This document shows positions 8,281 to 62,890 of a stretch of 64,000 nucleotides of DNA, in pieces. Location of the stretch: contig ONNQ01000011.1 in assembly GCA_900319245.1 (NCBI GenBank), positions 1 through 64,000 on the forward strand, written 5' to 3'. The notes beneath the pieces were generated by a model. The model was not told the origin of the DNA and made no database searches. It saw nothing but the letters and a program-made list of their open reading frames with translations. Position numbers and translations under genes: made by a program. The first letter of the stretch is position 1. Every line of letters starts with the position of its first letter. This stretch comes from an uncultured Lachnospiraceae bacterium (GTDB taxonomy: Bacteria > Bacillota > Clostridia > Lachnospirales > Lachnospiraceae).

Positions 8281-8349
8281 ACTCTCCTCCTGTTTTCGAA
8301 CTGATGCCCGCCGGGTCAAAATATTGCCCTGCACCTTCTATCCATCGCT

Positions 8350-30200: not shown

Positions 30201-33200
30201 GAGCTTGCGTGTATAGGTGTTCTCAAAGGCAATTTCTTTCTCACTCTTGATTTCGACCACAATATTACCGTCTGGTCTTGTTATGGTCGTGCAGTTATAG
30301 ATCGAAGTAATACTCTCTGCGTTCGTCTCCTTAACAATATAGACACCGGTGGGAACCTTTTCGAATTTCTTCTGGCCGTCTGTCATATCAAAATAGGAGA
30401 AAGTTGTAGGTTCAAAAATAATCCTATTGCCTTCTTTAGGAGTTCCATCTGCGTTGATGTTTGAATCCCTATAGCCGGTCACTGTAAATTGGATAGCCTT
30501 TTTCTGGTCATCCGTCAGGTTTTCATCTTTGAGTTGGGAATTCTTTCCGAATGTCTTTTTGACAATCAGATTGCCGTAACCCATATATCCATTAGTAACA
30601 TCAATGCCTATACTGGTACCACCAGCGACAACTGTGAAGGTTACCTGATGCGTTTTACTCGATACTGTGCCACCCTTAATCGATCCAGAGACATAGAACA
30701 AAACAGAAGCTGTGTAGTCGTCCACATCATAGTTTGTCTCTACAATCGTATATGTGCCAGGCTCAAGCTTAATGTTAGAAGCAGGCAAGACACCAGCCTG
30801 TCTTTCGGCTTCAGTTATGCTGCTCGCATCATACGCATATGTGCCGACAGGTGTACCGGTCGCAGAGCTTCCTTTATAGATAACGAAACGAATACTCTTT
30901 TTAACAAGATTCTCAACCCGTTTCTGTTCCTTGTCGAACTCGACAGGATCTGCGATAGATTGTCCGTCGAGGATGACGGTCTTCGTAATTCCTACGCCTA
31001 CGCCGACCTTAGAATACCTGTTCCAGAAATAAATGTAGGATCTGTTGCCATGTGTGACTTCTTTCGATGCCGAAGTATGACCATATGTGCGATTGATCTC
31101 GCTCTCTTCGTCCACAATCTGACTCCAGACGTCTTTATCGCCATGCGTGTAGACATCTTGCTTGTATTCATCGCCGCTCTCTACGACCTGGTAGTGGCCG
31201 ACGGGAAGGTCGATACCAGCTTCCATCTCAGCCAGCGTAAACTCACTCTTTCCATTAACTGTGACTTCCACGTTACCATGATCAACGTCTATGATCTTAA
31301 AACGGAGTTTGCCGCGAAGTTCAGTTTTCTCAACGTCAGTAAGTCCAGTAATAGTCTTATCAATCATCAGCTTACCGCTGTTGACATAGTTGTTGTTAAA
31401 GACAGCTGTATGCTCCTGCCCTTTCGCACTCACGGTTGCGCTCGTCGGATTGTCGCTAGCGCTGCCATCCAGGGCGACTGTAGTTGTCCTGATATACTTA
31501 TCGAGATCCGCATTAACCTCTGTGATCTTATATGCGGTGCTGCTCACAGGGACCTCAACAGAATACTCTCCATTAGCGTCCAAGTCAGACAGTTTTACCT
31601 TATAGGAGTTGGTACCATTCGAAATCGTGAACAGAACAGTATCCGGATCACTAAACTTAGCCTTAAATGCTGCCAGAGATTTAATATCTCCTGAGAGGGT
31701 CTTCTTCACCTTGATCGTACCCTTGTCCTGGCTGTAGTCATTGTTGACCGTTATTTCAGCTGTCTCGCCGAATATCACTTTCGATGTACCAGGCGTAGAA
31801 GTACCTCTGCCGGAAACGTCACCGTCATAGGTTGTTACGCGGGTGAAATTCGTGAAATCCGCATTTCCGCCCTCAGTGACGGTATAGTTGCCGATGGGAA
31901 GATTATCGATTGTACAAACTCCGTCGGCTCCAGTTCCAAAATTCGTGCTATTGATCGTGACCGTTTTGGTATATCCGTTGGGTCCTGTGATCGTCACAGT
32001 GGCTTTGGACCTCTTCTCGCGGAAGTTTTTGTAGTTCTTGTCACCCGTGACCTTTTTAATGATCTTCAGTGATCCGACCTTTGTATAGACATTCTTGTAG
32101 GTCGTTTGCGCGGTCTCTCCGTCTGTGACAGACGCAGTGGTCTGTAGCGTAGTAGACGCAGTCGCTTCGCCATTGATAAAGGTCTCTACCTTTGTGCCGT
32201 TTCCGCTGGCTACACCATTTTCTTTGATCGTATAGGTGCCAACTGGAAGATCGCTGATAGTAATAGATCCGCTCGCGATTTCGGCATATGTGACCGTACG
32301 GGAATAGTTATTGGGTCCGGTAATGGTGAAGGTTACATCTTTCTTTAATGCATCTGTCACACCATCGCCGTCAAATTCTTTGGTCAGCTTCAGAGCGCCT
32401 TTCTTCTGTCTGTAATTATTTGTAAAGAGGGCTTCCGAATTTTTATCCTTCTCTACAGCGATATCACCGCCGATATTGCCTGTGCCGCTATTCTGACCAT
32501 CCACTGTAAACGAATAAGTAGCGGATGTGCATTCATAACCATCAACATTTCCAGCGTTTTCAACCACATGATACTTACCTACAGGCAACTCGCTCAGGGT
32601 AAGCGCTCCACCCGCTTTGTAGATATCTTCATAGGTATAAACATGTCTGTAATTATTAGGGCCTGTGACAGTGAATGTAATCTTCTCCCGCTGCGCCTTA
32701 GTCATATTGTTGCTGTTCAGCGCAGAACCGTTAGCAAAATTCTTCTTAAGGACAAGATTTCCACTGTCCTGCACATAGATATTCTTCAGATGGAAAGTTC
32801 TCTCATCGCTGGCAGGGATAGGCTGAGTCACCTCTGTTACAGATGAAGAACTGAGAGTATAATCAGGGATTTTCAGGGTAGAAGTCTCCCTGACTGTATA
32901 TGTTCCCTTAACAAGACCTTTAAACTCTTTTTTCGCCTGGTTGTTTCCCTGATCTACCATGTCGGCATAGGTAAATTCAGGAATCACATTTCCATCCTTA
33001 TCCTTTGCCCTGGCGCCGTTGGAATCAAAGATAGCAAAGACCATCTTCTCTTTTTCGGCTGCTGTCAAAACATGGTCGCCATTGATTTGGTTTTCCTTGA
33101 TGACATTAATGCCGACAGTAAGATCGACAGGAATTAACGTATCATCGTCAAACTCAAAATCGTCGCCATCCCCATTAACCATCATCTGAAGACTAATTGT

Positions 33201-34247
33201 AAGTCTGGCGTTCTCCGCGATGCAAAGTGCGTCATAAGATTCTTCCGGCTCATGGTTCCACTCATACACAATCACATCGGGCACGCTAGGGTCATCACTC
33301 TGCTCAATCCTAAACCTTGTAGTCAGATATAACCGTTTATCGGTTCCAGTTGCCTCATCTGTAACTATAACACTGACTGTGGAATCGCCATAGAGAGGCG
33401 GCACCGCTTTGGCTCCGTTAGGCAGTTTATAGCGGAGGGTATCCATACTAAACTGAATACCTTCCTCTTTTTCATGGAACTCCAATTTCAAATTGAACAG
33501 GTCACCAGCATGAAGGGGTTCGGTAATAGCAGAACCGTCAGGATGTGTTATGGTGACACTCATATTCTGCCCAAACTCATTTAATGAGCTCTTCTCGCGG
33601 CCGGTTACGGTTTCCGAGGGCTGAGGGGACTTCAGCGCATCCTTCTTGGCGCTCTCGACTTCCTCGGTCTCCTCCTCATCGGCGTTCTCCTCGGGAGTCG
33701 TCTCCTCCTCGGGAGCGATCTCTTCAGACTTGCCTTGGTCGGGGTCCTCGTCATCATCGCCGTCTTCATCCTCAGTCTTATTGACTTCGGGTGTTGTAGG
33801 CTCCGGCTCGGTCTCTGCCTCCTTAACCGTTACATGAACGGTAGGCATATTACTATAAGAAAGACTGCTGTCGTCGAACGAAGCCGTAAGGGCATACGTT
33901 CCGGCAGTACTTCCGTCATAGTCTCCATGCCAGGAAACAGATTTGTCTACTGTCTCCTCAGAAACCGCCGGTGCTGTCTCCTCGGTGGAGCCTTCAGCCG
34001 ATGTGACCGTCTCTAAAACAACGGACAGCGAAGAAGGCAGACCGATCTCGTCCTTGGACGTACCGTTGTCTACCTCGTATTCGGTCTGAATACCGCCGAT
34101 CGATTTGACAGTTGTTGTAGATGCAGCATGAACCACCAGTGATTCGTACGGCAGCATGGTAACCGTTACAAGAACGATCATGATCTGCGCAAGGATCCGG
34201 TCTCTCAAGCTGTATCTGCTTCCTGCTTTTCGATTCCTCTTTTCCAT
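21264..34247 (-). CDS. Giant multidomain surface protein with Cna-B-like and FctA-like repeats
   Basis: A 4327-residue predicted adhesin or stalk. A long signal peptide (basic start, hydrophobic IMIVLVTVTMLP, cleavage after VVHAA) is followed by an acidic, proline-rich stretch at residues about 140-220. Then come about 11 repeats of ~120 residues with FTVTGPNNY, LPVGTYTVKE and a final N.Y (DUF5979/Cna-B-like), a ~340-residue unique domain (29115-28095), a SpaA-like domain, 13 repeats of ~155 residues resembling FctA/Spy0128 isopeptide domains (GRKLKDSEFWF, YPTFKYIVD, GITYDTT, FxNxY), and a last SpaA-like domain. The C-terminus has ARTGDEAP, a hydrophobic span and KKKRRA, sorting-signal-like without LPXTG. 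Its start follows GGAGGAGG. Codon use looks AT-richer than neighbours, especially in the 5' half, suggesting acquisition. Confidence 0.85.
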   Translation of the reverse strand: MEKRNRKAGSRYSLRDRILAQIMIVLVTVTMLPYESLVVHAASTTTVKSIGGIQTEYEVDNGTSKDEIGLPSSLSVVLETVTSAEGSTEETAPAVSEETVDKSVSWHGDYDGSTAGTYALTASFDDSSLSYSNMPTVHVTVKEAETEPEPTTPEVNKTEDEDGDDDEDPDQGKSEEIAPEEETTPEENADEEETEEVESAKKDALKSPQPSETVTGREKSSLNEFGQNMSVTITHPDGSAITEPLHAGDLFNLKLEFHEKEEGIQFSMDTLRYKLPNGAKAVPPLYGDSTVSVIVTDEATGTDKRLYLTTRFRIEQSDDPSVPDVIVYEWNHEPEESYDALCIAENARLTISLQMMVNGDGDDFEFDDDTLIPVDLTVGINVIKENQINGDHVLTAAEKEKMVFAIFDSNGARAKDKDGNVIPEFTYADMVDQGNNQAKKEFKGLVKGTYTVRETSTLKIPDYTLSSSSVTEVTQPIPASDERTFHLKNIYVQDSGNLVLKKNFANGSALNSNNMTKAQREKITFTVTGPNNYRHVYTYEDIYKAGGALTLSELPVGKYHVVENAGNVDGYECTSATYSFTVDGQNSGTGNIGGDIAVEKDKNSEALFTNNYRQKKGALKLTKEFDGDGVTDALKKDVTFTITGPNNYSRTVTYAEIASGSITISDLPVGTYTIKENGVASGNGTKVETFINGEATASTTLQTTASVTDGETAQTTYKNVYTKVGSLKIIKKVTGDKNYKNFREKRSKATVTITGPNGYTKTVTINSTNFGTGADGVCTIDNLPIGNYTVTEGGNADFTNFTRVTTYDGDVSGRGTSTPGTSKVIFGETAEITVNNDYSQDKGTIKVKKTLSGDIKSLAAFKAKFSDPDTVLFTISNGTNSYKVKLSDLDANGEYSVEVPVSSTAYKITEVNADLDKYIRTTTVALDGSASDNPTSATVSAKGQEHTAVFNNNYVNSGKLMIDKTITGLTDVEKTELRGKLRFKIIDVDHGNVEVTVNGKSEFTLAEMEAGIDLPVGHYQVVESGDEYKQDVYTHGDKDVWSQIVDEESEINRTYGHTSASKEVTHGNRSYIYFWNRYSKVGVGVGITKTVILDGQSIADPVEFDKEQKRVENLVKKSIRFVIYKGSSATGTPVGTYAYDASSITEAERQAGVLPASNIKLEPGTYTIVETNYDVDDYTASVLFYVSGSIKGGTVSSKTHQVTFTVVAGGTSIGIDVTNGYMGYGNLIVKKTFGKNSQLKDENLTDDQKKAIQFTVTGYRDSNINADGTPKEGNRIIFEPTTFSYFDMTDGQKKFEKVPTGVYIVKETNAESITSIYNCTTITRPDGNIVVEIKSEKEIAFENTYTRKLGNLEIIKTFAGDPLNSDCDLSKMTFTVTGPDGYTATKTYDEFTDGKWTINNLPTGTYTVKETGADYEDQYYERTTTVKVGTDAETAYDDAAGVSGAVEDKKTLHVELINSYKEVGALIFKKSFIDDEAINKLTPEQKAAVAFTVKDSTGATIATITYAQIKAAGEPGYKILVDAPADYTIIESADIAGYERTTTVKVNAQTADYDETTGVFAHVDKFTSSTVDFTNEYKEAGKLVVTKSISYTGNLTEEQQKEFKFTVTDPDGNVLKDADGNEIGVFTYFDMVKNSTGKVGTMTFENLPAGTYHIKEEVLHEGDDQANPFYGLVRTTTITVGTDKTNGLEADFNVTKDNTNVLVTNTYADVPPLTVVKRGGGYPTKTTGIGGLEYPIWKFTLDISNLSVATTTNGTTEIKDTYDVLFGDSDLGIRPEYFKTLTAAEAAQYVGDADANKLIPVDTNGNANGVTVTISENGTDGSTIKIEGVSETTTPHHTLTFYLMPKDADSLGLLNLSDDQDEAGEESTEVVKSFNNNIQYKELPLSDWTTQKTPVEYNYRYEMLHKEAENYDAEKKSFFDPANPDQVVNYAVYRIVMNPEAKWMGDQNQTQVDCKDEFSDNQYVDESTIKFYTYDENDQLVETTVDYNMSGNVITFKIDNGKRYEMTYHAEILYTADDLHHTMEVWNKMQMNNKWVRPNPEFVPESLGDASVDYIKLRKTDRVKSNVTLAGAQFELYGSVADAEAGRNCMGTYTTGANGICIIQDYSYTDEDGVEKTGHIYANKDKVWALKEVVAPPGYELINYIVQVRLANRTKGETADPSQFIFLPSTAVGVKDKPYEGKVELGALKELIGSNVDVAAGDYEFTLTGIDGAPTGKAASDSEPAPTAPVTKANDANGKVRFGEIVFRTTDLTPIRDANGVITGYEPTTFKYTIKEEPGDKDGVTYDTTEHTVEVKVTSNDEDDTLDVEVKIDGKVVTAGENDVYFANISNEYNAEGSLVLGAKKTIKGRKLRVEEFTFEAALNDADNTVVSAKNAAENVYDCDIVFPQIDYVLDESDEAGYKDTTKVVKENDTYTVHIDPDVMNKTDGDGHRYVDYQYTIKEDTKTPIKGVTYDGTEYPVTVRVTDLDNGELQIKVLKNGNVITDFFSNFTFVNVYKADGEATLTGDKIVENDEQELAAGTYEFNVYDMTDGETLIGKVTHAAATAGNVGAAIQFPTIKAVVKPTATDDELGMKVVTGNSGYVKEIVITYRNYEDFLKEDGKTPKEFKFKFNELHGGEVRDGIQYSDASYGVTATVAMNSKDESKLDVNLEKTAEKFDFINTPMEAEGEATPKGTKVLNGRTLKEGEFTFDLYYGTKVIGHVTNEAGGKIKYPTIKFVLDAGGTEGVTVDSETDTTLVTITVRSPQKLKGPYEFTVMENKDNPSPGIVYPLYPEDRKTFTATAKMKEGSNTEIEVTLTDADALSFVNTYGAEGQDTAEGKKILEGRKLKDSEFWFAIFDESDSVNPIGRVANDLNGKIQYPTFKYIVDPKATAGRKLETANGQLTAVIITVNKVEDLEATSYTVKEIEQSEAGITYDTSTTQTIKVTPEVDPDDESKLKVTAEAEEGKKFTNTYTAAGQAKPSGFKELTNRLPDNEEFEFEIKEGDTVIATVKNTDELNDGQNMKTIDYPTFKYTVDANKEAGTTYDEESNTITVNVQKVEDIESPYKYTISEVIPEGADETTDGKFIYKGVTYDTTVIDLTVNVAVNLNDQSRLDVTINKPIGNDFKNEYEATGAMELTAEKTLLGRILNSGEFTFRLKDEQGNTLQEKKNVKNAITFDKITYTLDNMDRDDHGFVKDTVYKYTVSEVKGNAGGVTYDENVYGIKVTLHDNKDGTINVKVEDDFGSLIEAILAKYKFKNAFKNFYDAKGEGTFSGTKTLRGREIKEGDDETVFTFKIKIGDKEFTLTNTGNQIKYPSLKFVVDSSLEPGTVMLPNWENENHESIVVKAADLENIINVKDATADPVEYEPKDYVFTVTEETGNAAGITYDTTEYTVTATVSLNEDDQGKLDVNVEVKPEKNANFINTYRARGEGTGKAVKFLYGRELQDKEFTFEITDKAGKVLGTVVNDAFGVVYYPVFRYVVDPDADNLGLTTKTDEDGNLTEIIKTYASKEDLEKDLTAEYKVKEVIGSEPGITYDGTTVDTIKVSVVVTKDELEPGVAKLGVAVETDTGAEFTNYYKARGEKSISGSKELTYRLPEDEEFEFVISEKIPDQRGSHEIARVKSSDMINEDYTGKTIKYPTFRYIVDYQATPGTVYDAKNNVIIVTVNWAEDLENGFTYTITEVNDGQTYFTYDTTEITLNVTVTPTGEEIEPRVEKLDVEIEDSEGNDFHNKYYAKGALQLYAEKTLLGRILNSKEFTFELNRTDETFENIIENVDTKENAKDGSVTFDLIEYDLDSMDKDEHGFVKDTKYYYTVSEVVPEGAVENEDGTYTYNGVTYDPAVFQITATLHDNKKGLIEVSVDAKPEGELTFVEKLLGYEFKFGNAFVNFYHAEGEDTISGTKTLRGRNLTDGEYQFEIKDADGNVLATVSNNADGTINYPVFRYVVNHLAEENSYAFDETNNTLTLTTSNLEDMVTPVDITADPVTYESKDYIYTIDEVIPEGATDNGDGTYTYKGVTYNELVNDYTLTATVAVNADDMGILDVSIDNKEGLDFSNAYRAKGEDTVVGKKILKGADIKDYEGLFSFTVSDSEGNLITTVTNDAEGNILYPTFRYVVNPDAEAGAVYDEEENVYTVTVNAYEDLAEVYRYKVTEVEGDIEDMAYNVGEKLEYDITVTAVADDEDQSILNVVALPNTAVDFVNRQYFKAGLYKVSENSGEALKGAVIRLVRVDDGKVIDEWTTDGSVHMINLIEIGTGTFRFVEVKSPSGYHLAKNIEFTMSEDGEFSSTYDHIYDDNGNAIFIMRDPKDARTGDEAPLAAAGGAFALGVAGLAAVLAQKKKRRA
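21690..27715 (-). repeat. Array of 13 FctA/Spy0128-like domain repeats
   Basis: Thirteen consecutive coding repeats of about 460 bases. Each runs from a motif like GTKTLRGR to a closing FINTY-ARG type junction. The last eight form two blocks of four (about 25380-23563 and 23562-21690) in which each domain is closest to the domain four places on: compare TLHDNK and DEHGFVKDT in the second domain of both blocks, and ADPVEYEPKDY with ADPVTYESKDY in the third. Confidence 0.8.
29115..33130 (-). repeat. Array of about 11 DUF5979/Cna-B-like domain repeats
   Basis: About eleven coding repeats of roughly 365 bases, each with a strand like GSLKIIKKVTGD, a central TVTGPNGYT or equivalent, LPxGTYTVKE and a terminal NxY. 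They are more diverged from one another than the FctA-like units. Several lack the TGPN motif (fifth, sixth, seventh and tenth copies). Confidence 0.75.
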
Positions 34248-39719: not shown

Positions 39720-40886
39720 TTATACCAGCAGTATCCTTTTTCCGCCTTCATAGGGACCGACTGTCCCAATTACAGCACATTTCATGCCCTCATTACCGAG
39801 CTGTTTCTCTGCTTCCTTAAGGTCGCTTAACAGCTGCTGTGCATCCTCGGGGTCCACCGCCATCAGGAGACCTCCCGATGTCTGCGGGTCGTAGAGCAGA
39901 TCCTGCATGGTTTGCATCCACTGCTGCGACCGCATGGGTACCTTGTGATCCACTCCGCCAGCCGACTCCAGCGCCTCCTGTGACCACAGGGGTACCTTGT
40001 AATCCGCCCCATCGCGGTCCGTCCCTTCGCCCACTTGGACTTGGTCCTGTGCGAAATGCCGGTTGCGGTACATGCCCGCCGGCAGGATGCCCATCTCGGC
40101 AAACTCCCAGGCCTCCGGGATCACCTGCGCCTGCGCTGCCTGTAAATCCACATGAATCTGCACATCACTGCCCGATGCCATCTCCAGCATGTGTCCCAGC
40201 ATGCCGAATCCGGTCACGTCCGTGCAAGCGTGCACCCTATAGCGCACCATCACGTCCCTCGCGGCCCGGTTCAGCGTCATCATAATCTGCTCCATCCGCT
40301 CCGTGAGCGCCGCATCGCACATCTCCGCCTTGGCCGCCGTCGTCAGAACACCGATTCCCAAGGGCTTGGTATAGATCAACACATCCCCTGCCTTAGCCCC
40401 CGAGTTGGTCAAAATCCTGTCCGGATGCACGAATCCTGTGACTGCCAGGCCGTATTTTGGCTCTTTGTCGTAAATGCTGTGGCCGCCTGTGATCATGGCG
40501 CCTGCTTCGTACACCTTGGCGTAGCCGCCCCGCAGGATCTCGTGGACATGTGTCTTGTCCATGTCCTCGGGCACCATCATGATATTGAGGGCCAGCTTGG
40601 GCTCCCCGCCCATGGCGTAGACGTCGGACAGCGCATTAGCTGCCGCGATTGCACCGAATCTGTAGGGATCGTCCGCAATCGGTGGGAAGAAGTCGACGGT
40701 CTGCACGATGGCCAGCTCGTCGCTGATCTTATATACCGAGGCATCGTCACTCTTGTCAAACCCCACTAAAAGCCGTGGATCTTTGCGCACCTGCAGATCG
40801 CCCAGCAGGGCCTGAAGCTCACCGGCGCCGACCTTGGCACCGCAGCCGGCACATTCCGTGAGTTTGGTCAGTTTGATTGAATTCAT
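39720..40886 (-). CDS. selD: Selenide, water dikinase (selenophosphate synthase)
   Basis: A 388-residue SelD that makes selenophosphate from selenide and ATP. Catalytic Cys15 and Lys18 lie in ECAGCGAK, corresponding to Cys17 and Lys20 of E. coli; it is a Cys form, not Sec. DKSDDASVY, VDFFPPIADDPYRFG, GGHSI, DVTGFGMLGH and DPQTSGGLL are intact. Residues about 293-328 are an insertion of two 18-residue units (GADYKVPLWSQEALESAG and GVDHKVPMRSQQWMQTMQ) before the DPQTSGG motif. No selA, selB or selC is in the window. It sits between the DUF3343 gene and xdhB, in the SDMH context. Confidence 0.95.
   Translation of the reverse strand: MNSIKLTKLTECAGCGAKVGAGELQALLGDLQVRKDPRLLVGFDKSDDASVYKISDELAIVQTVDFFPPIADDPYRFGAIAAANALSDVYAMGGEPKLALNIMMVPEDMDKTHVHEILRGGYAKVYEAGAMITGGHSIYDKEPKYGLAVTGFVHPDRILTNSGAKAGDVLIYTKPLGIGVLTTAAKAEMCDAALTERMEQIMMTLNRAARDVMVRYRVHACTDVTGFGMLGHMLEMASGSDVQIHVDLQAAQAQVIPEAWEFAEMGILPAGMYRNRHFAQDQVQVGEGTDRDGADYKVPLWSQEALESAGGVDHKVPMRSQQWMQTMQDLLYDPQTSGGLLMAVDPEDAQQLLSDLKEAEKQLGNEGMKCAVIGTVGPYEGGKRILLV
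39903..40010 (-). repeat. Two-copy 54-base in-frame repeat in selD
   Basis: Two units, each with GGTACC embedded in a similar context (near 39938 and 39992), lie 54 bases apart and encode the two DYKVP / DHKVP units. The reading frame is kept. Confidence 0.65.
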
Positions 40887-40889
40887 CGT

Positions 40890-41228
40890 TTACTCTTTTC
40901 CTCGCACTTCATACATCATGACTTCATGCACGCCGGCGATCGTGAAGTTTCCTTCGGAAGCCGCTGTGAAAGCCTGCAGTGTCCCCGGCGCAATGATCCA
41001 CGCAAGGCCGCAGTCCGCCCGGATCGTTCCTGGAAGGGGAATGATCCTGCCTGCGATTCCGCGCGCCCGGCAGACAGATTCTGCCACCATCGCATCCGCT
41101 GTGGTCGGGAAGGAGGCAACTTGGTGGAGGGTTTTGCGGCGGCGGGGTCGCCGACTACCTGCGGTGACATCTGCAGAGGCCGCTTCTGAACTGTTCCTGG
41201 CTGTCGTATTCTCTGGCTGTCCGCTCAT
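40890..41228 (-). CDS. DUF3343 family protein, putative Se/S carrier
   Basis: A 112-residue protein. The C-terminal ~75 residues fit DUF3343 (ASFPTTADAMVAESVCRARG, then IPLPGTIRADCGLAW with one conserved Cys). Members often sit beside selD and yedF and are named putative Se/S carriers; that role is not proven. The N-terminal 38 residues are low-complexity (Ser/Ala/Thr, then RRPRRRK) and not part of the family. The start at 41228 overlaps the MATE stop as ATGA with GGAGG 7 bases before it. Confidence 0.82.
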   Translation of the reverse strand: MSGQPENTTARNSSEAASADVTAGSRRPRRRKTLHQVASFPTTADAMVAESVCRARGIAGRIIPLPGTIRADCGLAWIIAPGTLQAFTAASEGNFTIAGVHEVMMYEVRGKE

Positions 41229-42610
41229 TGGGCGCCTCCATACAGCCGGTCGATCTCCGACACCTGGTCCTCGTCGGGCGTCTCCTTCATAAATTGCGCC
41301 ACAAACGGGATGCAAGTCAGCGTCGTGAGCATGTCCGCAACCATCTGCGCACACTCGATACCGGTCAATCCCAGAAACAGGGGCAAAACAATGAGCGCCG
41401 GAATGTAATAGAGTCCGCTGCGCAGCATAGCCATAAACGAAGCTTCTTTACTGCGGCCGATGCTTTGGAACATCATGTTGGACGATACACTGAACGGCTG
41501 CATCACAACCGCGATACATTGAAAGCGCAGCGCACGGCTGCCAATCTCCACAACCTGCGGATCGTCGCGGAATATTTGTACTATTGGTGCGGGAAACAGG
41601 AAGCCGGCGATGGCGAGAATGCCTAGGACGGCGGTTCCTATTTTGACCGTGAAGAAGAAACTGTCGCGCAGTCTTTTGAACTTGCGCGCGCCATAGTTAT
41701 AAGCGGAAACCGGCTGAAAGCCCTGCCCGAGGCCGATCATGGCCGATCCGATGAACATGACAATTCGCCCGACGATCGCCATGGCCGCAATGGCCGCGTC
41801 GCCGTAAGGCATTGCGCAGTGGTTGAGAGTAATGGTCGAAATGCTGTTGAGCATCTGCCGGATCAGGCTCGGGAAACCCACGCGCATAATGGACAGCGTG
41901 ACTTCCGGATCATTGGAGCGGCAGCGCAGCGACAGGCGGCTGATGGTCCGCTTGCTAAACACCATGTACAACAAAATGCCAAAGCTGATATACTGCGAAA
42001 TCGCAGTCGACAGCCCCGCACCGTCGATGCCCAGCCCCAGGCCGAACATCAGAATGGGATCCCCAATCATATTGAGGACGCCGCCCGTCACCAGTCCAAA
42101 CATGGCCAAAACAGCACGCCCCTCATAGCGCATCACGTTATTGAGCACGCAACTTCCCACCAGCGCCGGCCCTGAGATCAGGATATAGAAGCCGTAGTTC
42201 TTGGAAAACGGCAAAATCGTATCCGTGCTTCCCATGAGCCGCATTAGGGGCTCCAGCCCAACCAGACACACCGCGCTGACAACCACGCTGATGACCATTG
42301 CATGAAAGAAAGCTGTCGAAAACAGCCGATCCGCTGTGTCCCGGTCGCCCTCTCCCAGCCGTATGCTGATCTGGCTTCCTGCGCCGTGTCCCATCATAAA
42401 GCCAAAAGCCTGAAAAATTGACTGCACGCCCAGCACAACGCCAATCGCGGCGCTGGCGCTGGTCCCCAGCTTGCCCACAAAATAGGCGTCCACCAGGTTG
42501 TAAATCATTGTGATCATCATGCTGAAGATCGTTGGCACGGCCAGCCGTGGGATCAGCTTCTCCACGGGCGTCATGACTAGTTTTCTGTATTGCTGTTGCT
42601 CTTTGCTCAT
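41225..42610 (-). CDS. MATE-family efflux transporter
   Basis: A 461-residue membrane protein with twelve predicted spans in the MATE pattern (IPRLAVPTIFSMMITMIYNLVDAYFVG at its start is typical, also LGQGFQPVSAYNYGAR in the second half). MATE proteins export organic cations or other small molecules using Na+ or H+ gradients. It is translationally coupled to the DUF3343 gene and so belongs to the selenium operon by position; a link to selenium or molybdenum chemistry is only inferred. The ribosome site is weak. Confidence 0.92.
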   Translation of the reverse strand: MSKEQQQYRKLVMTPVEKLIPRLAVPTIFSMMITMIYNLVDAYFVGKLGTSASAAIGVVLGVQSIFQAFGFMMGHGAGSQISIRLGEGDRDTADRLFSTAFFHAMVISVVVSAVCLVGLEPLMRLMGSTDTILPFSKNYGFYILISGPALVGSCVLNNVMRYEGRAVLAMFGLVTGGVLNMIGDPILMFGLGLGIDGAGLSTAISQYISFGILLYMVFSKRTISRLSLRCRSNDPEVTLSIMRVGFPSLIRQMLNSISTITLNHCAMPYGDAAIAAMAIVGRIVMFIGSAMIGLGQGFQPVSAYNYGARKFKRLRDSFFFTVKIGTAVLGILAIAGFLFPAPIVQIFRDDPQVVEIGSRALRFQCIAVVMQPFSVSSNMMFQSIGRSKEASFMAMLRSGLYYIPALIVLPLFLGLTGIECAQMVADMLTTLTCIPFVAQFMKETPDEDQVSEIDRLYGGAQ

Positions 42611-42728
42611 TTTTATTTTGTTACCTGCTTGTTATTTTTTCTAAACTAGTTGTATTCCTTCATTTTTGTGGTGGTTATGCTTTGTTTTTGCCTTGGTTTG
42701 TCTTGGTTTGTCTTAACTACCCGCCTTG

Positions 42729-43106
42729 TTTGGGCACAGACGAGAACTTTTCAGATTTAGTTCCAATTGATTTCTTGCTCTTTTGCTACTTTTAGGTACA
42801 GGCTGAGATTTTTCTTCATTCAGCTCCCAATGCCTGCTTCTCTTTCGTGACGTTTGGGCACAGAAACTCTTTCTCAGAAAAAAGTTCCAAAAAGCTTAGC
42901 TTGCTTTGGAGACTATTTCTCGAAAATCCTTGTGTGTACCCAAAACGGCCAGTAGGCCTCCAGAATTATGGAGACCATCTTGTCAAAATACATCTTCTGT
43001 GCCCAAAATGTCCAAAATCCATTGGAACTTTTTTTAAAAAAATAGCTTCTGTACCCAGTCCATCTCTATGGCTCCATTTTTAGAAAAAAGAGCTTCTGTA
43101 CCTAAC
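42729..43106. repeat. Degenerate ~62-base repeat array in two facing orientations
   Basis: The 578 bases between the MATE and desulfurase genes contain no convincing gene. Three plus-oriented units start at 42729, 42791 and 42853, exactly 62 bases apart, each with TTTGGGCACAGA or TTTAGGTACAGG and a later GTTCCAA-like segment. Four minus-oriented cores (TGTGTACCCAAA, TCTGTGCCCAAA, TCTGTACCCAGT, TCTGTACCTAAC) lie at 42933, 42996, 43048 and 43095. T- or A-rich tracts follow each core. Confidence 0.75.
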
Positions 43107-43188
43107 AAATCACCAATGCAGCTACCCTCAATAACCAAACCTCTGCTTTTCCCAGTTAAGCCCACAGGTCGACCTGCGTTCGCCCGCT

Positions 43189-44625
43189 TCAAATCGATTC
43201 CGCAATCTCCCGCAGCGCCCGCGCGGCAGTCTCCACTTCCTCCGGGGTGTTGAACAGCCCAAAGGAGAATCGCACCGCGCCACTCTTCTCTGTGCCAAGC
43301 GCCCTGTGCATCCGCGGCGCACAGTGTGCGCCAGCCCGCACCGCAATTCCATACTCTTGTGCCAAAAGATCGGCCAACTCCCAGGACTCCAGCCCCGCAA
43401 GATTCAAAGCCACAATCGGCATGCTCTCACTTCCGATTCCTGGTCCGTATATCTCAATTCCCGGAATGTCCGACACCGCCTCGATGAACCGATCTCGCAA
43501 AGCAAGTTCCTTAGCATGAATAGCAACTGGTCCTTGCAAATCAAGCTTCATACCATGAATAGCTCCCGGTCCCTGCGATACAAGCTCCATACCATGAATA
43601 GCTCCCGGTCCTTGCAAAGCATCTCCATCCTTCCACTCCTGAATGAACTCCACCGCTGCGGAAAGTCCCGCAATCCCGTGCCCATTCAGCGTCCCTGCTT
43701 CCAGATGAGCCGGATAAGCCTCCGGCTGCCTCTCTTCATAGGAAGAAACACCGGTCCCGCCCGTCACGAGCGGCACTACATCGATTCCTGGCGACACACA
43801 CAAGCCGCCGGTTCCCTGCGGCCCGAGCAAGCTTTTGTGCCCGGTGAAGCAGAGCACGTCGATTCCCATTGCCTCCATGTCAATCGGATACGCGCCCGCA
43901 GTCTGCGCCGCGTCCACGATCAGCACCGCACCGCTCCGATGCGCCGCCTGTGCCACTCTGCGGATGTCCACCAGCGCCCCGGTCAAGTTGGAGGCGTGTG
44001 TGCACACGACCAGATCCACCTCCGGCGTGCAGAGCGCCTCCAACTCCTCATACCGAAGCCGCCCAGTCCGGTCCACCCCCGCAAACCGCAGCTCCGCGCC
44101 ACACTCGTCCCGCAATCTATAAAGCGGCCGCAGCACACTATTATGCTCCATCTCCGTTGTCAAAACAGTGAGCACCCGACATCCGTCGCAATGTTCCCCA
44201 GCTGCCAACCGGCCCGCACCCGCCGGCTTTCTCTCCATGATCTCTGCAGCCACGCCATAAATCGCCATATTCAGCGCCTGCGTTGCACCCGACGCAAAGA
44301 CCACCCTCTCCGGATGGGAAAATCCAAACAGAGAAGCCAGTCTCCTTCGCGCCTCCATGATTGTCCGGTCCGCTCCCAGGTCGCGCTCCGCGTTGCCGCG
44401 CGACGCATTGCCAAGAGACCCCAGGGCCTCCACCACCGCCTGCGCGACGCAGGGCGGCTTCTGCAGAGAAGTCGCCGCCGTATTGAGGTAGATAGACTTC
44501 TTAGCGGAAGTCGCCACTGTATTGGGATGTACAGACTTCTTAGCGGAAGTCGCCACTGTATTGGGATGTACAGACTTCTTAGCGAAAGTCGCCGCCGTAT
44601 TGAGATAAATGGGTTGGTGGGTCAT
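43189..44625 (-). CDS. Class-V aminotransferase fold cysteine desulfurase
   Basis: A 478-residue PLP enzyme of the NifS/CsdB type that takes sulfur (or selenium) from cysteine (or selenocysteine). The PLP Lys is Lys264 in CFTGHKSLLGPQGTGG, the PLP-contact motif is VLIVDAAQTAG, and the reactive Cys is Cys435 in VRAGAHCAPRMH. It is longer than the usual ~380-400 residues because of two in-frame repeat tracts: residues 6-57, four 13-residue units around the normal IYLNTAATS start, and residues 337-375, three 13-residue units around QGPGAIHG. The start overlaps the yedF stop as ATGA. Context suggests it feeds selenium to SelD; this is inferred. Confidence 0.93.
   Translation of the reverse strand: MTHQPIYLNTAATFAKKSVHPNTVATSAKKSVHPNTVATSAKKSIYLNTAATSLQKPPCVAQAVVEALGSLGNASRGNAERDLGADRTIMEARRRLASLFGFSHPERVVFASGATQALNMAIYGVAAEIMERKPAGAGRLAAGEHCDGCRVLTVLTTEMEHNSVLRPLYRLRDECGAELRFAGVDRTGRLRYEELEALCTPEVDLVVCTHASNLTGALVDIRRVAQAAHRSGAVLIVDAAQTAGAYPIDMEAMGIDVLCFTGHKSLLGPQGTGGLCVSPGIDVVPLVTGGTGVSSYEERQPEAYPAHLEAGTLNGHGIAGLSAAVEFIQEWKDGDALQGPGAIHGMELVSQGPGAIHGMKLDLQGPVAIHAKELALRDRFIEAVSDIPGIEIYGPGIGSESMPIVALNLAGLESWELADLLAQEYGIAVRAGAHCAPRMHRALGTEKSGAVRFSFGLFNTPEEVETAARALREIAESI
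43501..43617 (-). repeat. Three-copy 39-base in-frame repeat in the desulfurase gene
   Basis: Three 13-codon units LQGPGAIHGMELV, SQGPGAIHGMKLD and LQGPVAIHAKELA follow one another with high identity at DNA level in the first two. Confidence 0.85.
44455..44610 (-). repeat. Four-copy 39-base in-frame repeat at the desulfurase N-terminus
   Basis: Units IYLNTAATFAKKS, VHPNTVATSAKKS (twice, almost identical DNA) and IYLNTAATSLQKP. The last unit is the family's normal N-terminus; the first three are extra copies. Confidence 0.9.
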
Positions 44626-45479
44626 ATTTTGACCACGTTGCCGGCCTCGGCCATGGTCTGCGCGATCACGTACATGTTTGTGATGCCGCCCACGCGCAGC
44701 TTGTCCTTGAGGCCATAGAAATCCAGACATGTGCCGCAGCTGAGGATCTCCACGCCCTGCGCTTCCAGCGCCTTGAGGTCCTCGATGGACTCGCTGCCCT
44801 CGGTCGTCATGCGCACGCCGCCGTTGAAGAAAAGCACGGTCTGCGGCAGCGCGTCCAGCTGGGTGAGGGAATAGAGGAAGCTCTTCATCAAAATTTTGCC
44901 CAGTTTGGGATCGCCGTTCCCCATCTCGGCGGAACCAATCGCAACGATCACCGGGCCGCGGGCGGGCGCTGCGCAAATCTGCTGAGCCTGCTCTTCAGCA
45001 GACAGGCTACTCTGTGCGCCGCCAGAAAGAGCCGCGCCACTCTGCGCTCCGCCCGAAAGAGCCGCACCACTCTGCGCTCCGCCTGTAGCAACTGCGCCAG
45101 AAAGAGCCGCGCCACTCTGCGCTCCGCCTGTAGCAACTGCACCAGAAAGAGCCGCGCCACTCTGCGCTCCGCCTGTAGCAACTGCGCCAGAAAGCCCCGC
45201 GCCACTCTGCGCTCCGCCTGTAGCAACTGCGCCAGAAAGCCCCGCGCCGCTCTGTGCCGCCGGCGCCCCTGCCGGCACGATCTCCACGATCCAGCAGCTG
45301 CCGTCCGCCTTCACATCCGCTGCCGCGCCCTTTTTCTGCGCCATTCTCTTAAGGTTCTCAACTGCCGCCTCGTTGTCCACCTGCACCTGCAGCGTCTCGC
45401 CGGCCTGCAGCGCATCCAGCGCGCGAATGGCCAGAATCACAGGCTGCGGACAGGGTTTTCCCTTCGCGTCTATAAACAT
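44622..45479 (-). CDS. yedF: YedF-like selenium metabolism protein (TusA + DsrE-like domains)
   Basis: A 285-residue two-domain protein. Residues 1-70 are a TusA/SirA-like domain with the CPxP motif (KPCPQPVILAIRALD, Cys10). Residues about 172-285 are a DsrE-like domain (PVIVAIGSAEMGNGD, then ILSCGTCLDFYGL). Two-domain proteins of this kind are markers of selenium metabolism, usually next to selD. The two domains are joined by an unusual 80-residue Ala/Gly/Ser linker made of 15-residue units (AQSGAALSGAVATGG). The start at 45479 has GAGGAG upstream. It is translationally coupled to the desulfurase gene. Confidence 0.92.
   Translation of the reverse strand: MFIDAKGKPCPQPVILAIRALDALQAGETLQVQVDNEAAVENLKRMAQKKGAAADVKADGSCWIVEIVPAGAPAAQSGAGLSGAVATGGAQSGAGLSGAVATGGAQSGAALSGAVATGGAQSGAALSGAVATGGAQSGAALSGGAQSGAALSGGAQSSLSAEEQAQQICAAPARGPVIVAIGSAEMGNGDPKLGKILMKSFLYSLTQLDALPQTVLFFNGGVRMTTEGSESIEDLKALEAQGVEILSCGTCLDFYGLKDKLRVGGITNMYVIAQTMAEAGNVVKI
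45009..45254 (-). repeat. 45-base minisatellite in the yedF linker
   Basis: Four nearly identical 45-base units are followed by about two truncated 27-30-base units, all in frame, encoding the AQSGAxLSGAVATGG linker. Differences between units are mostly single bases. Confidence 0.92.
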
Positions 45480-45643
45480 AATGCTTGCTCCTCTGCTGTC
45501 AACTATATTGTATGGCCAAGCCGTGCGCACCTTGGGACGTGCGTCTTGCACGTGCTTACGGTGTCCACTCGCCACATTCGTGTTACAATGACTCTACAGA
45601 GTTATTATATTCATGTACGATACATCGTGCATAGCAATTTTTT

Positions 45644-45655
45644 GACAAGCTTGTC
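45644..45655. promoter_or_regulatory. Palindrome between yedF and yqeC
   Basis: GACAAGCTTGTC is a perfect 12-base palindrome in the 272-base divergent gap between yedF and yqeC. TTGACA (45642-45647) overlaps it and could be a -35 box for yqeC, though the following -10 is poor (CTATAC at long spacing). On the other strand a TATAAT at 45604-45609 could serve yedF. Confidence 0.4.
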
Positions 45656-45751
45656 TCACATTACCTCTATACGATTGGTCAAAATACTCCCACCACAACA
45701 TTTGTACCAATCCCGTTCCCTGGCCTGTGAAATTGCCTGTGAGGTGCTCCC

Positions 45752-46720
45752 ATGACAAACGACGATAAACGAACATTGACCGCACAGGGCGGCCAACCTT
45801 TCTATTATGAACTTGCGCATGCGGCGCAGTCCTCTTTGCAGCCCGCCTCCTTGGCGGACGCACTCGGCGTGCGCCCCGGCATCACGGCCATCATCGGCAG
45901 CGGCGGCAAAACATCGCTCCTCCGCTCACTTTCCCGCGACCTGTCTCACGAACTGCCCAGCGAGGTGTCCCGCGAGATGTCTCACGAACTGCCCAGCGAG
46001 GTGTCTCGCGAGATGCCCTGCGAGATGCCCTGCGAACAGGCCCGGCAACTCTCTCACGGATCCTCCCACAGCCGATCGGGCCGCGGCAGCCGCATTCTTC
46101 TGACAACCACCACACACATCCTGCCATTTCAGGATCTGCCGTGTCTGCGGGTCTCATCGGAAGAGACTTCTTCCTGGGTGCGGGAGCAGCTTGCCGAATT
46201 TGATGTATCTGTGAAGGAAGTCTGTTTTGGAAGTGGGCTTTTACCAGAGAATAGTGACTCCCGTTTATCTTTCAACCCCAAACTCTCCGCGCCGGGATTT
46301 CCCCTGTATGAGCTGCTGCCTGCGGCGGACTATATTTTGACAGAGGCGGATGGGGCCCGGCATCACTATATGAAGGCGCACGCGCACTACGAGCCGGTGA
46401 TTCCGGATCGGTGCGGGCGGACGATTCTGGTCATAGGGGCGCAGGGATTCGGGATGAAAGTGGCGGAGGCGGTGCACCGGCCGGAGCTTTTCTGCCGGTT
46501 GACCGGAACGCAGCCAGGCGACATCGTGACGCCGGCCCTCTATGCAGAGTTCCTGCGACGGGAAGTGGAAGGTGGACTCGCTTTCGACTGTATCCTCATG
46601 AATGGGGTCAGTTGCGAGCAAAGACGTGATTGCGCGGCAGAATTTGCCGCAGAATTTACAGAAAAAATGGCAGGCCAATTCAGCGGGCCCGTCGTCCTGG
46701 CGGCGCTCCCGCTGGCGTGA
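45752..46720 (+). CDS. yqeC: YqeC-like selenium cofactor biosynthesis protein
   Basis: A 322-residue protein of the YqeC family, a marker of selenium-dependent molybdenum hydroxylase systems. It shows LGVRPGITAIIGSGGKTSLL (a P-loop-like motif, residues about 39-57), ILLTTTTHI, and LTEADGARHHYMKAHAHYEPVIP. Its biochemical activity is unknown. Between the P-loop helix and the next strand, residues 65-100, lies a 36-residue insertion made of SHELPSEVSREM twice and a diverged third unit. The start has GAGGTG 5 bases upstream. It is the only plus-strand gene of the module. Confidence 0.9.
   Translation: MTNDDKRTLTAQGGQPFYYELAHAAQSSLQPASLADALGVRPGITAIIGSGGKTSLLRSLSRDLSHELPSEVSREMSHELPSEVSREMPCEMPCEQARQLSHGSSHSRSGRGSRILLTTTTHILPFQDLPCLRVSSEETSSWVREQLAEFDVSVKEVCFGSGLLPENSDSRLSFNPKLSAPGFPLYELLPAADYILTEADGARHHYMKAHAHYEPVIPDRCGRTILVIGAQGFGMKVAEAVHRPELFCRLTGTQPGDIVTPALYAEFLRREVEGGLAFDCILMNGVSCEQRRDCAAEFAAEFTEKMAGQFSGPVVLAALPLA
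45944..46051 (+). repeat. 36-base in-frame repeat in yqeC
   Basis: Two almost identical 36-base units (45944-45979 and 45980-46015) and a diverged third (46016-46051) encode SHELPSEVSREM twice and PCEMPCEQARQL. Confidence 0.9.
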
Positions 46721-46737
46721 CCCATTCTCCTACAAGG

Positions 46738-46860
46738 TCATTTCATCTCGATCGTGATCTGCAGCATTGCCTTTTCCTCCTCGCTTTCTGAATCCTCAAT
46801 TTCCTGTGTTGTATACGTACCTGCGGACACACTCTCTTCTCCTTCTGCCTCCTGCTGCAT
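46738..46860 (-). CDS. Small acidic hypothetical peptide
   Basis: A 40-codon frame, Glu-rich (EEKAMLQITIEMK at its end), convergent with yqeC. An AAGGA lies about 9 bases before the ATG at 46860. It follows the small membrane protein gene closely. Longer starts upstream overlap that gene. I recognise no family; it may not be a gene. Confidence 0.25.
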   Translation of the reverse strand: MQQEAEGEESVSAGTYTTQEIEDSESEEEKAMLQITIEMK

Positions 46861-46909
46861 GGCCTCCATTCCTTGTCGATATATCAAGCAATAATGGCCG
46901 TTTATAGAT

Positions 46910-47137
46910 TCACACGACTCTGCCTGCCAGGGCAGCAATTCCTGCGATGCCGATGATCACAATCAGCGGCAGGAAGGCAAGTGCCATGCCGAATGCTGCA
47001 ACTGAAAGGACGCCGAGCAGCACATAACCGATGATTCCAAACACGATGCCGAGCATCTTGCCCACTATTTTGAACAGGAATCCGGTCACTTTAAAAAGCA
47101 CAAACATCATTAAAACAAGAATCATAATTTCCATCAT
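46910..47137 (-). CDS. Small hydrophobic membrane protein
   Basis: A 75-residue protein that is almost wholly hydrophobic, with two or three predicted spans (MILVLMMFVLFKVTGFLF, GIIGYVLLGVLSVAAFGM and FLPLIVIIGIAGIAALAG). AAGGAGG lies 8 bases before the start, so it is very likely translated. It starts 38 bases after the MocA-like gene stop and may be in that operon. No family is recognised. Confidence 0.75.
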   Translation of the reverse strand: MMEIMILVLMMFVLFKVTGFLFKIVGKMLGIVFGIIGYVLLGVLSVAAFGMALAFLPLIVIIGIAGIAALAGRVV

Positions 47138-47175
47138 TATTGAGTCCTCCTTGACTATCTATTCATAGACTTTTG

Positions 47176-47988
47176 TCAAATTCTTCTGCGATCACAGGGT
47201 CGCCCTATGATCGCTCCCTCGCACACTGCCTCCAATTCTGCCAGTGCCTCTGGCGTGTCCACGTCCATCAGCTCGTACGGGCTGCCGGCTTCCACAACCA
47301 GCACTTGCATTCCCGCGCCTCGCGCGGCTTCGTCTCGCAGCAAACTCGCACCGCCCCGGTTTCCTTCTAGCGCGCAAAGTGCGTCGAACATCGCTGCCGG
47401 GAACAAGATCGGATTTCCGCCCTCCTGCTTCCATCCCAACCTGCAGACTACGCATTTTCCAGCGTTCTCATTGCCAAAACACTGCTCTTTAGCACTTCCT
47501 TGGGCCTGCTTCCAAGCTTTTTCCCAAACTTGCAGCATCTTTCTTACAGACTCCTCTGTCAGAAGCGGCTGATCGCCCGCCACGAACAGGCAGGCATCCG
47601 GATTGTGCTGATTGTCCGTCTCATTCAAATTGCCCGATTTGTCCAGATTGCTCTGCACATCACGGCCAATCAGGCCATTCGAAGCGCCCCTGCTTCCAGC
47701 TGTCACCGCACACAGCCCTGCGCGAATTGTATCGCTGCGCAGCGCGCCGTCGTGCCGCACGCAGGGAATCTGCAAGTTCCTGCACAAGGCTTCCACCGCC
47801 GGCCAGCGGGTCACGACCACCATCTCACAGAATTCTTCTGCGGGGAGGACCTGCAAAACCCGCGCCAATACAGCCATCCCACCGAGCGGTGCAAGAAGCT
47901 TGCCGCCCCTCTGCGGGCCGAATCGCTTTCCCTCGCCCGAAGCCATGACGACGCATGCAATTTGAGGGTTCTTCTCGCTCATCTTCAT
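47176..47988 (-). CDS. MocA/MobA-like nucleotidyltransferase
   Basis: A 270-residue GT-A fold nucleotidyltransferase of the MocA/MobA type, which attaches a nucleotide to molybdopterin or, in this setting, may act in the selenium-dependent hydroxylase pathway. Motifs: IACVVMASGEGKRFG, KLLAPLGG, SDTIRAGL, ACLFVAGDQPLLT and GGNPILFPAAMF. Two insertions are visible relative to the family: about 30 residues (GSRGASNGLIGRDVQSNLDK and onward) before the GDQP strand, and about 15 residues (AQGSAKEQCFGNENAGK). The start shares TGATG with the yqeB stop; an ATG six bases on has a better AGGTG site. Confidence 0.85.
   Translation of the reverse strand: MKMSEKNPQIACVVMASGEGKRFGPQRGGKLLAPLGGMAVLARVLQVLPAEEFCEMVVVTRWPAVEALCRNLQIPCVRHDGALRSDTIRAGLCAVTAGSRGASNGLIGRDVQSNLDKSGNLNETDNQHNPDACLFVAGDQPLLTEESVRKMLQVWEKAWKQAQGSAKEQCFGNENAGKCVVCRLGWKQEGGNPILFPAAMFDALCALEGNRGGASLLRDEAARGAGMQVLVVEAGSPYELMDVDTPEALAELEAVCEGAIIGRPCDRRRI
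47190..47212. repeat. Palindromic element, copy 1
   Basis: GATCACAGGG and CCCTATGATC pair with one mismatch around TCG. It lies in the last codons of the MocA-like gene and supplies its final residues. A related copy is at 48949-48970. Confidence 0.6.
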
Positions 47989-48932
47989 CACCTGCGAAGC
48001 CTTCCGCTTCTCCACGCCTCAATCGCCATCAAAACACTGTTCCCTATACTTCTCGACTTATCCGAAATTGTAAAGCAGTTCTGCCGCTGATCCGGCCTGG
48101 GATCAATATCCGCCGCCTTCATGTGCACAGGAACGATCGTCCCGTCTCGAAGAATGCCCCGAAGGATGCCGGTCAGCGTCGCCTCTACCGGCACACGCTC
48201 TCCTTTTTCTGTCTCTACGAACGCGATCACATCGCCTTTGTTCACGCTGTCGCCAATTGCGCGAACACATCTGAAAACGCCGGCCGTTGTCGTATGCATA
48301 ACCCGGTCCGCCGCATGGCCGGCAATGGATCCCGGCACACCAGTATTGGGAAGTGCGCTTCCCGAGAGAATCAGCCGGCCCAGGTTGTGGCCGCGCATGG
48401 TCTCAATGACCACGTCCACGTCTGCGATGCTTCTCGCTGACATGCTTTCTGCTGCCGCCTCCGCGTTTTCCGGCTCGGCGCTTCCCAGCTCCGAACTCCC
48501 TGGCTCCGCGCTGTCTGCTTCCGCGCTTCCCGCAACAAATCCCGGTCCCAGCGCAATCGTAAGCGGTGCCATATCATGGTGCGTACCAAGATTTCTTTTG
48601 GCAAGGATCGCGTCCACGACGACCGTCGGCTGCAAAGTCCGAATAAATGATCCATCGGGGTCGACCATAACAGCCACTTTGCCGGAACTGATGATCTGCA
48701 GAGCCTCTTCCGTACTGTTCGCCAGGATTCCTTCCATGCCTTCAACCACAGCGCTTCCATCATATACGGCTTCGCTGATCGCAACTGCGTGGCGAATTGC
48801 CGTCGGCTGCGCGACCTCCAGCGCAATCACCGGATAGCCCGCCATCCACAGGGCGTAGATCACGCCGGTCGCCAGATCGCCCGCACCTCTCACAATAATC
48901 AACGAGTCTTCATTTTTAGTGCCATTTCCCAT
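47988..48932 (-). CDS. yqeB: YqeB/EF2563-family SDMH maturation protein
   Basis: A 314-residue protein of the EF2563/YqeB family found with orphan SelD and selenium-dependent molybdenum hydroxylases. Motifs: IIVRGAGDLATGVIYAL, EVAQPTAIRHAVAISEAVYDG, VVDAILAKRNLGT, ALGPGFVAG, VVIETMRGHNLGR, SALPNTGVPG, LRGILRDG and DIDPRPDQRQNCFTISDKSR. Its activity is unknown. Residues about 135-170 are a low-complexity insertion (GSAEADSAEPGSSELGSAEP) inside the otherwise continuous GPGF...DVDVVIETMRGH segment. The start has GGGAG 6 bases upstream. It is followed directly by the MocA-like gene. Confidence 0.92.
   Translation of the reverse strand: MGNGTKNEDSLIIVRGAGDLATGVIYALWMAGYPVIALEVAQPTAIRHAVAISEAVYDGSAVVEGMEGILANSTEEALQIISSGKVAVMVDPDGSFIRTLQPTVVVDAILAKRNLGTHHDMAPLTIALGPGFVAGSAEADSAEPGSSELGSAEPENAEAAAESMSARSIADVDVVIETMRGHNLGRLILSGSALPNTGVPGSIAGHAADRVMHTTTAGVFRCVRAIGDSVNKGDVIAFVETEKGERVPVEATLTGILRGILRDGTIVPVHMKAADIDPRPDQRQNCFTISDKSRSIGNSVLMAIEAWRSGRLRR
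48423..48530 (-). repeat. Low-complexity in-frame insertion in yqeB
   Basis: About 108 bases made of diverged copies of a GCTTCCGCGCTTCCC-like unit encode Gly-Ser-Ala-Glu-rich sequence that interrupts a conserved family segment. Confidence 0.7.
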
Positions 48933-62458: not shown

Positions 62459-62890
62459 TTATTCAGCAGCCTCTTCTTTCTCTTCCTCGGCAGGTGCCTC
62501 AGCTGCCTCTTCGGCAGGCTCCTCAGCCGGCGCTTCCTCTGCGGGCGCCTCAGCTGCTTCCTCGCCAGCCTCCTCTTCGACCTTTTTAAGTCTCTCAGAA
62601 ACCAGCTTCTCTGCGTTTGCGAGCTGCTCTTTGATCTTCGCAAGTTCCTCGGAAGACATCTTGGAAACCCTCTCGCTGATCTCGTCAATGTCGATGCCTC
62701 TCTTGCCCATGCTCTCCTTGAAGCTGCGCTGCAGATCACTGCTCAGGTCTTTGCCCTGCTCCACTGTGATCTCGCCCTTCTTGACGAGCTCGCCAATGAT
62801 CTCCTGGCCCTTTTCTGCAGAATATGCAACTGCGCCTACGCCTGCCAGAATGATTGTCTTGATTCCATCACCAAACTTAAAATCTGCCAT
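62459..62890 (-). CDS. Phasin-like protein with acidic tail
   Basis: A 143-residue protein. Residues 1-95 resemble small phasin-like proteins: DGIKTIILAGVGAVAYSAEKG, then GELVKKGEITVEQGKDLSSD and helices after. The rest is Glu, Ala and Pro (EEAPAEEPAEEAAEAPAEEE), very like the stalk of the DxDxDG protein at 2882-3382. No polyhydroxyalkanoate synthase gene is nearby, so a granule role is not supported by context. The start is an ATG preceded by GGAGG. Confidence 0.75.
   Translation of the reverse strand: MADFKFGDGIKTIILAGVGAVAYSAEKGQEIIGELVKKGEITVEQGKDLSSDLQRSFKESMGKRGIDIDEISERVSKMSSEELAKIKEQLANAEKLVSERLKKVEEEAGEEAAEAPAEEAPAEEPAEEAAEAPAEEEKEEAAE

Follow-up and report, generated by a model that had tools for sequence, protein, structure and literature searches.

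How do conserved enzymes of a single metabolic module come to carry repeats within their reading frames? The question arises from the first 64,000 nucleotides of contig ONNQ01000011.1 of an uncultured Lachnospiraceae bacterium (assembly GCA_900319245.1), hereafter called the window. Named relatives of its YedF, together with the number of genera (298), also point to a family of Lachnospiraceae type. The window contains genes for SelD, a cysteine desulfurase, YedF, YqeC, a MocA-like protein and YqeB, which belong to a selenium and molybdenum (Se/Mo) module. A first-pass annotation, made from the letters alone, had described repeat expansions or insertions in all of these proteins and none in the genes outside. 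In our assessment, the answer is probably tandem duplication that is blind to the reading frame and strong in some lineages of the genus, with in-frame products that survive as disordered loops.

Arrays were called by Tandem Repeats Finder (TRF), and the repeat score of each gene was compared with those of 60 codon-shuffled versions. Four in-frame tandem arrays within three adjacent genes are real beyond doubt. Two of them lie in the desulfurase gene (478 aa; 43189..44625, minus strand). The N-terminal array (44468..44606, minus strand) consists of 3.6 copies of a 39-bp unit and scores 67, where the shuffles reach at most 12. Its units are copies of the conserved segment IYLNTAATS..K. The native segment is the last copy, and no base differs between copies 2 and 3 over their 39 bp. 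The middle array (QGPxAIHxxxLxx; 43497..43618, minus strand) has 3.1 copies of a 39-bp unit and, with the N-terminal array excluded, scores 38 against a maximum of 12. Here too, the native segment aligns with the last copy. The YedF gene (285 aa; 44622..45479, minus strand) carries an array in its linker (45009..45254, minus strand), which comprises 4.6 copies of a 45-bp unit (45050-45254) and a 30-bp variant (45009-45083), and scores 139 against 15. On the opposite strand, the YqeC gene (322 aa; 45752..46720, plus strand) contains 2.3 copies of a 36-bp unit (45932-46015), with weaker rows up to 46035 on the same strand. This array sits just after the P-loop GSGGKTS (45896-45916) and scores 39 against 10. 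Matches between copies amount to 79-95% in the four arrays, and all four are in frame.

The remaining proteins of the module are less clear. SelD (388 aa; 39720..40886, minus strand) has an insertion at residues 287-323 (39918..40028, minus strand) that contains a diverged 54-bp duplication (39921-39956 and 39975-40010). The two copies of 36 nt lie 54 bp apart and share 81% identity, and the signal is weak, with a score of 16 where the shuffles reach 14. YqeB (10 against 12) and the MocA-like protein (10 against 13) contain no tandem repeat beyond chance. The repeat expansions reported for the module are thus confirmed for the desulfurase (twice), YedF and YqeC, with the unit sizes of 39, 39, 45 and 36 bp; the 54-bp unit of SelD is doubtful, and YqeB and the MocA-like protein drop out as tandem repeats. 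No repeat exceeding its own shuffles was found in the MATE gene, which lies within the interval claimed for the expansions, or in the XdhA, XdhB, XdhC and ThiF genes. The sole further array in the window with a TRF score of at least 60 is an E/A-rich tail (62482-62575).

The frame rule becomes apparent on a larger scale. We sampled 1,033,673 bases of the same genome in 60 stretches, which correspond to 35% of the genome and 860 called genes. Arrays with a period below 9 and arrays partly across a gene edge were excluded from the period count. Among arrays with a TRF score of at least 100, the period was divisible by three in 22 of 22 intragenic cases versus 6 of 17 intergenic ones. In-frame arrays occur elsewhere in this genome in TilS, an ABC ATPase, a GntR-type protein, a Fic protein and others. 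TilS (L118:7068-8744) has a SAQPIAQK-type repeat and a second repeat-bearing loop, and the ABC ATPase, which is incomplete at a contig end (L114:2-958), has a YAGQN-type array (15 bp, 5.7 copies) within the ABC domain. Since such arrays are common in the sample beyond the window, the absence of inserts from genes outside the module holds for the neighbourhood only. The density of arrays scoring at least 100 is 24.7 per Mb of coding sequence in this genome, compared with 63.7 in G028, 6.7 in G030, 7.9 in G015 and 8.1 in 64 named contigs (samples of 0.29-0.88 Mb). The densities of G030 and G015 are ordinary, so not every member of the genus is rich in repeats.

Two enzymes unrelated to selenium illustrate the tendency across the genus. 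TilS matches are found in 59 of the 61 genomes of the genus. In an alignment of 30 species, two TilS loops span 8 to 55 and 2 to 58 residues, and among loops of at least 24 residues, internal repeats were detected in 6 of 10 and 6 of 15 (p<0.05, one borderline). A net insertion of at least 12 residues in the N-domain, or an in-frame split of the match, is seen in 12 of 54 genus members versus 3 of 77 from other genera of the family; this count leaves out the genome under study and the partial matches of G011, G022, G080 and, outside the genus, G125. The main matches to TilS in the order-level search show no in-frame split in any other genome. In MutS, 10 of 46 genus members with full-length matches show an in-frame break of the match at profile positions 368-375, compared with none of 51 genomes from other genera. 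This count again leaves out the genome under study, as well as genomes with cut or partial matches (11 of 58 in the genus and 2 of 53 others). The ten expanded MutS loops (L265-L274, near profile position 370) differ in their low-complexity sequence, except in close pairs. Net insertions in TilS and MutS are thus commoner in this genus than in the other genera sampled.

Inserts of the module itself are absent from most relatives. The SelD insertion is missing in all 10 aligned named SelD proteins, and none of 21 named-homolog alignments reaches the first 36 residues of the desulfurase. Of these alignments, 17 start at query residue 45 and the rest at 37, 42, 65 and 83. The N-terminal array has no counterpart in named homologs. 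Within the genus, SelD is present in just 8 of 61 genomes, including the one under study. One of these relatives, G030, has two SelD insertions, a long YedF linker and a YqeB insertion, which is at the same place as the YqeB insertion described here and differs from it in sequence. The other six SelD-bearing members have no comparable set of inserts, though a smaller additional segment is present in the SelD of G036. The MocA-like proteins of G004, G029 and G030 are also longer in places, as judged from alignment rows. A desulfurase-like match in G002 (36%) was excluded from the alignments as a likely paralog. Among the named contigs, L083, from an uncultured Eubacterium sp. metagenome-assembled genome (CANDMV010000033.1), has a module of this kind in which both YqeC and YedF carry arrays (L083:3792-4724 and 7989-8819). 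These arrays (42 bp, 4.6 copies in YqeC; 33 bp, 3.5 copies in YedF) are its only ones scoring at least 70.

Frame-blind duplication would bring these observations together as follows. A lineage would have either a raised rate or a raised retention of short tandem duplications. Duplication would ignore the reading frame and strike genes and intergenic DNA alike, and within genes only units divisible by three would persist, at places where the fold can accommodate an arm or loop, such as termini, linkers and surface loops. The period rule would then result from frame-blind duplication and the loss of frame-breaking products, the repeat units from local copying, and the places of the inserts from fold tolerance. 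Copying is local in the desulfurase, where the native segment ends both arrays. The copies would diverge after duplication and come to resemble low-complexity insertions. Slippage or template switching may be the mutational step, the inserts may be neutral, and older non-repetitive inserts may have begun as repeats. The Se/Mo module would represent a local concentration of duplications in otherwise intact-looking enzymes, and the cluster of inserts looks like a lineage tendency rather than a selenium speciality.

Several observations weigh against this explanation. G030 and G015 have inserts in some proteins but an ordinary array density. Elsewhere in the genome under study, many arrays occupy ordinary acidic or P/A-rich linkers, not enzyme cores. 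A tandem array is detectable in just 2 of the 10 expanded loops of MutS; therefore, the other insertions may have another origin. Species of one genus share ancestry, so the p-values from their comparison are too small. Finally, a general process leaves the local cluster unexplained, since chance does not easily yield it.

This last point bears on the strongest alternative, a local hotspot, in which the 43-46 kb stretch raises duplication through replication, transcription conflict or its own sequence. A local excess of arrays in the module is supported. Genes with an array scoring at least 100 number 3 of 6 in the module versus 17 of 854 elsewhere (Fisher p=2e-4). In simulation, some 2.5-kb span of the 1.03-Mb sample holds four or more arrays with a probability of 0.00035. 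Both tests concern a region picked post hoc. The four arrays also extend over both strands. However, the MATE, MocA, YqeB and xdh genes lie in or beside this stretch and have no array beyond chance, the inserts of L083 and G030 occur in other gene orders, and the array units have no strong folding tendency. We regard a hotspot as unlikely. A homology-based count of insertions of at least 12 residues gave no enrichment (2 of 4 testable module genes versus 16 of 55 others, p=0.58); only 59 of 860 genes were testable, 18 of them with insertions, and this count of low power decides nothing, given the small number of comparators and the likely misalignment behind some of the calls. The cluster is a local concentration, for which post-selection chance, a hotspot, tolerance and function are candidates. 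The first-pass annotation had offered a local mutational process or selection on these proteins as a group. The local excess remains from that proposal, but exclusivity to selenium proteins is not supported in view of the arrays in TilS, the ABC ATPase and the GntR-type protein and of the TilS and MutS loops.

Selection on the group would mean that disordered repeat arms help selenium proteins, for example by gathering them while reactive selenium species are passed on. The recurrence of inserts is what favours it: they are found in the desulfurase, YedF, YqeC and, weakly, SelD here, in SelD, YedF and YqeB of G030, and in YqeC and YedF of L083. In the 64 named contigs, arrays scoring at least 150 occur in 2 of 133 module genes versus 0 of 752 other genes (p=0.02), an excess that is due to one contig, L083. 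At lower thresholds, there is no module excess in these contigs (p=0.22 and 0.75). Furthermore, most SelD-bearing members of the genus have no such set, the sequences and places of the inserts differ by lineage, and unrelated proteins such as TilS and MutS also have inserts. Among 87 other genomes with YqeC, only a handful showed an in-frame break in the YqeC match, which is a crude indicator of an insertion. We consider such selection distinctly improbable. A combined version, in which active duplication keeps building enzyme arms that are retained for function, with selenium-transfer proteins as a recurrent target and arms that gather the enzymes passing reactive selenium, is more speculative still. 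It keeps a small chance because inserts recur in G030 and L083.

Relaxed selection, in which a seldom-needed module tolerates insertions, agrees with the patchy presence of SelD in the genus and with the codon scores of YqeC, MocA, XdhC and the desulfurase, which fall in the lowest 6%. However, YedF is at the 90th percentile, codon scores do not differ between array genes and others (p 0.46 to 0.87), and neither the reading frames nor the presumed catalytic motifs are disrupted, which makes this explanation very unlikely. The lack of a difference in codon score also led us to reject codon adaptation as a cause. Hairpin-forming units were rejected as well: the mean fold z of intragenic units is only -0.34 in this genome and -0.48 in G028 (intergenic units, -0.75 and -1.72). 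Loss of mismatch repair was rejected on the basis of an intact MutS1. As a separate observation, the incomplete assembly contains no 800-residue MutS2-like match, which is present in the other 14 of 15 genomes. An assembly or binning artefact, as might be feared from 80 contigs at 87% completeness and 2% contamination, is scarcely credible given diverged copies that are in frame in each of the four arrays and inserts that recur in separate assemblies.

In-frame insertions in bacterial protein genes are known from the Rickettsia palindromic elements, which form one dispersed mobile sequence family. Unlike these, each array here seems to be copied from the sequence around it. A close likeness is found in the Borg elements of archaea (Schoelmerich et al. 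2023, PMC9879509). According to that paper, intragenic unit lengths in Borgs are all divisible by three, compared with 14-38% of intergenic ones. Arrays in and between genes, the period rule, local derivation and disordered segments are common to both systems. For disorder, the agreement is by proxy, since the inserts of SelD and the desulfurase are for the most part predicted with low confidence. Borg repeats are described there as near-perfect, A-enriched, carried by extrachromosomal elements and often located in extracellular or membrane proteins (PMC9879509). In contrast, the copies here are imperfect and lie inside conserved enzymes in a bacterial assembly (contig of 87 kb). Gene satellites of prokaryotes have long units that are mostly multiples of three and encode amino-acid repeats, and the satellite-rich Firmicutes include Clostridioides difficile (PMC6749651). 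Unlike the genus-wide case here, the available part of that account does not contain species-specific loop growth in conserved enzymes. In-frame short variable segments are frequent in some species (PMC2884548). The belief that nothing of this kind had been described thus has to be qualified by the frame signature of Borgs (PMC9879509). For a bacterial genus, no account of such inserts recurring in conserved enzymes was found among the open-licence papers that the searches listed.

If the preferred explanation is true, the species set provides natural replicates of loop growth in conserved enzymes such as TilS and MutS. One place with differing inserts would then display the path from recent repeat to diverged loop, so that one could test directly how disordered loops arise and how well enzyme folds tolerate them. 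It would also call for caution with family length and score cut-offs, which miss insert-bearing enzymes, as in the case of the desulfurase.

The module itself is of a known type. SelD (NCBIfam TIGR00476, 383.5 bits versus a cut-off of 125), YedF with its TusA-like and DsrE-like domains (TIGR03527, 210.8 versus 110), YqeC (TIGR03172, 116.1 versus 73.05) and YqeB (314 aa; 47988..48932, minus strand; TIGR03309, 307.2 versus 220) all score above their family cut-offs and lie close together, as expected of a selenium-dependent molybdenum hydroxylase module. The desulfurase is a cysteine desulfurase or selenocysteine lyase-like protein of the EF2568 group. Its top NCBIfam model is TIGR01977, at 353.2 bits against a cut-off of 377, and the inserts may depress this score. 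The MocA-like nucleotidyltransferase (279 aa; 47176..48015, minus strand; Pfam PF12804) scores 76.3 bits with the MocA/YgfJ model TIGR03310, under its cut-off of 186.45. A Se/S carrier-like protein (40890..41354, minus strand; Pfam PF11823) has no noted repeat. The xdh-like genes adjoin the module; the XdhA-like protein matches NF043082 best (602 versus 780 bits) and reaches 290 bits against a cut-off of 830 with TIGR03311 (Se_dep_XDH). No SelB was found above the cut-off (best 183.9 versus 242.25 bits) in this assembly of 87% completeness, the search not extending to SelA, selC or the selenouridine enzyme. Motifs that we take to be catalytic are present in SelD (CAGCGAK), the desulfurase (GHK and AHCAP), YedF (CPQP and CGTC) and YqeC (GSGGKTS), in agreement with the annotated integrity of these enzymes. 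The orphan-SelD module described by Haft and Self (2008, PMC2276186) shares SelD, TIGR03527 YedF, an EF_2568-type desulfurase, TIGR03309 YqeB, TIGR03172 YqeC and a nearby molybdenum hydroxylase. In the available text of that paper, repeat insertions are unmentioned and the word "repeat" occurs 0 times.

Several insertions in the module are not tandem repeats. Alignment with genus relatives revealed a further, non-repetitive one in the desulfurase, at about residues 126-145 (44191..44250, minus strand), and an S/A/E-rich one at residues 134-170 of YqeB (48423..48533, minus strand). The same kind of alignment revealed two in the MocA-like protein (47602..47694 and 47455..47520, minus strand), which are not repetitive. 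YqeB, with its low-complexity insertion, and the MocA-like protein exceed most relatives in length at these places. AlphaFold2 models of SelD and the desulfurase, built from small alignments (11 and 19 rows), have confident cores (mean pLDDT 82.7 and 80.5), and the fold matches of the desulfurase model are led by SufS-type structures. The pLDDT falls below 50 at residues 289-291, 297-304 and 308-319 of SelD, which is most of 289-319, and at residues 1-40 and 337-359 of the desulfurase. These values support, without proving, that the inserts are disordered, because homologs without residues there give low confidence either way.

Further features were observed alongside. The sequence TTGGGCACAG occurs at 42730, 42854 and 42997 of the window and 33 times in the 1.03-Mb sample of this genome, where all but one of the occurrences fall outside called genes. 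It accompanies 62-63-bp intergenic tandem arrays, is absent from the samples of G015, G028 and G030, and seems to be an intergenic repeat that is dispersed and specific to the species. At 21264-34181 of the window lies a called gene of 4305 residues. In Roseburia inulinivorans (L033:9552-11408), the first part of a 618-aa open frame matches the desulfurase and a YqeC-like match falls in the later part of the same stretch, which suggests a fusion.

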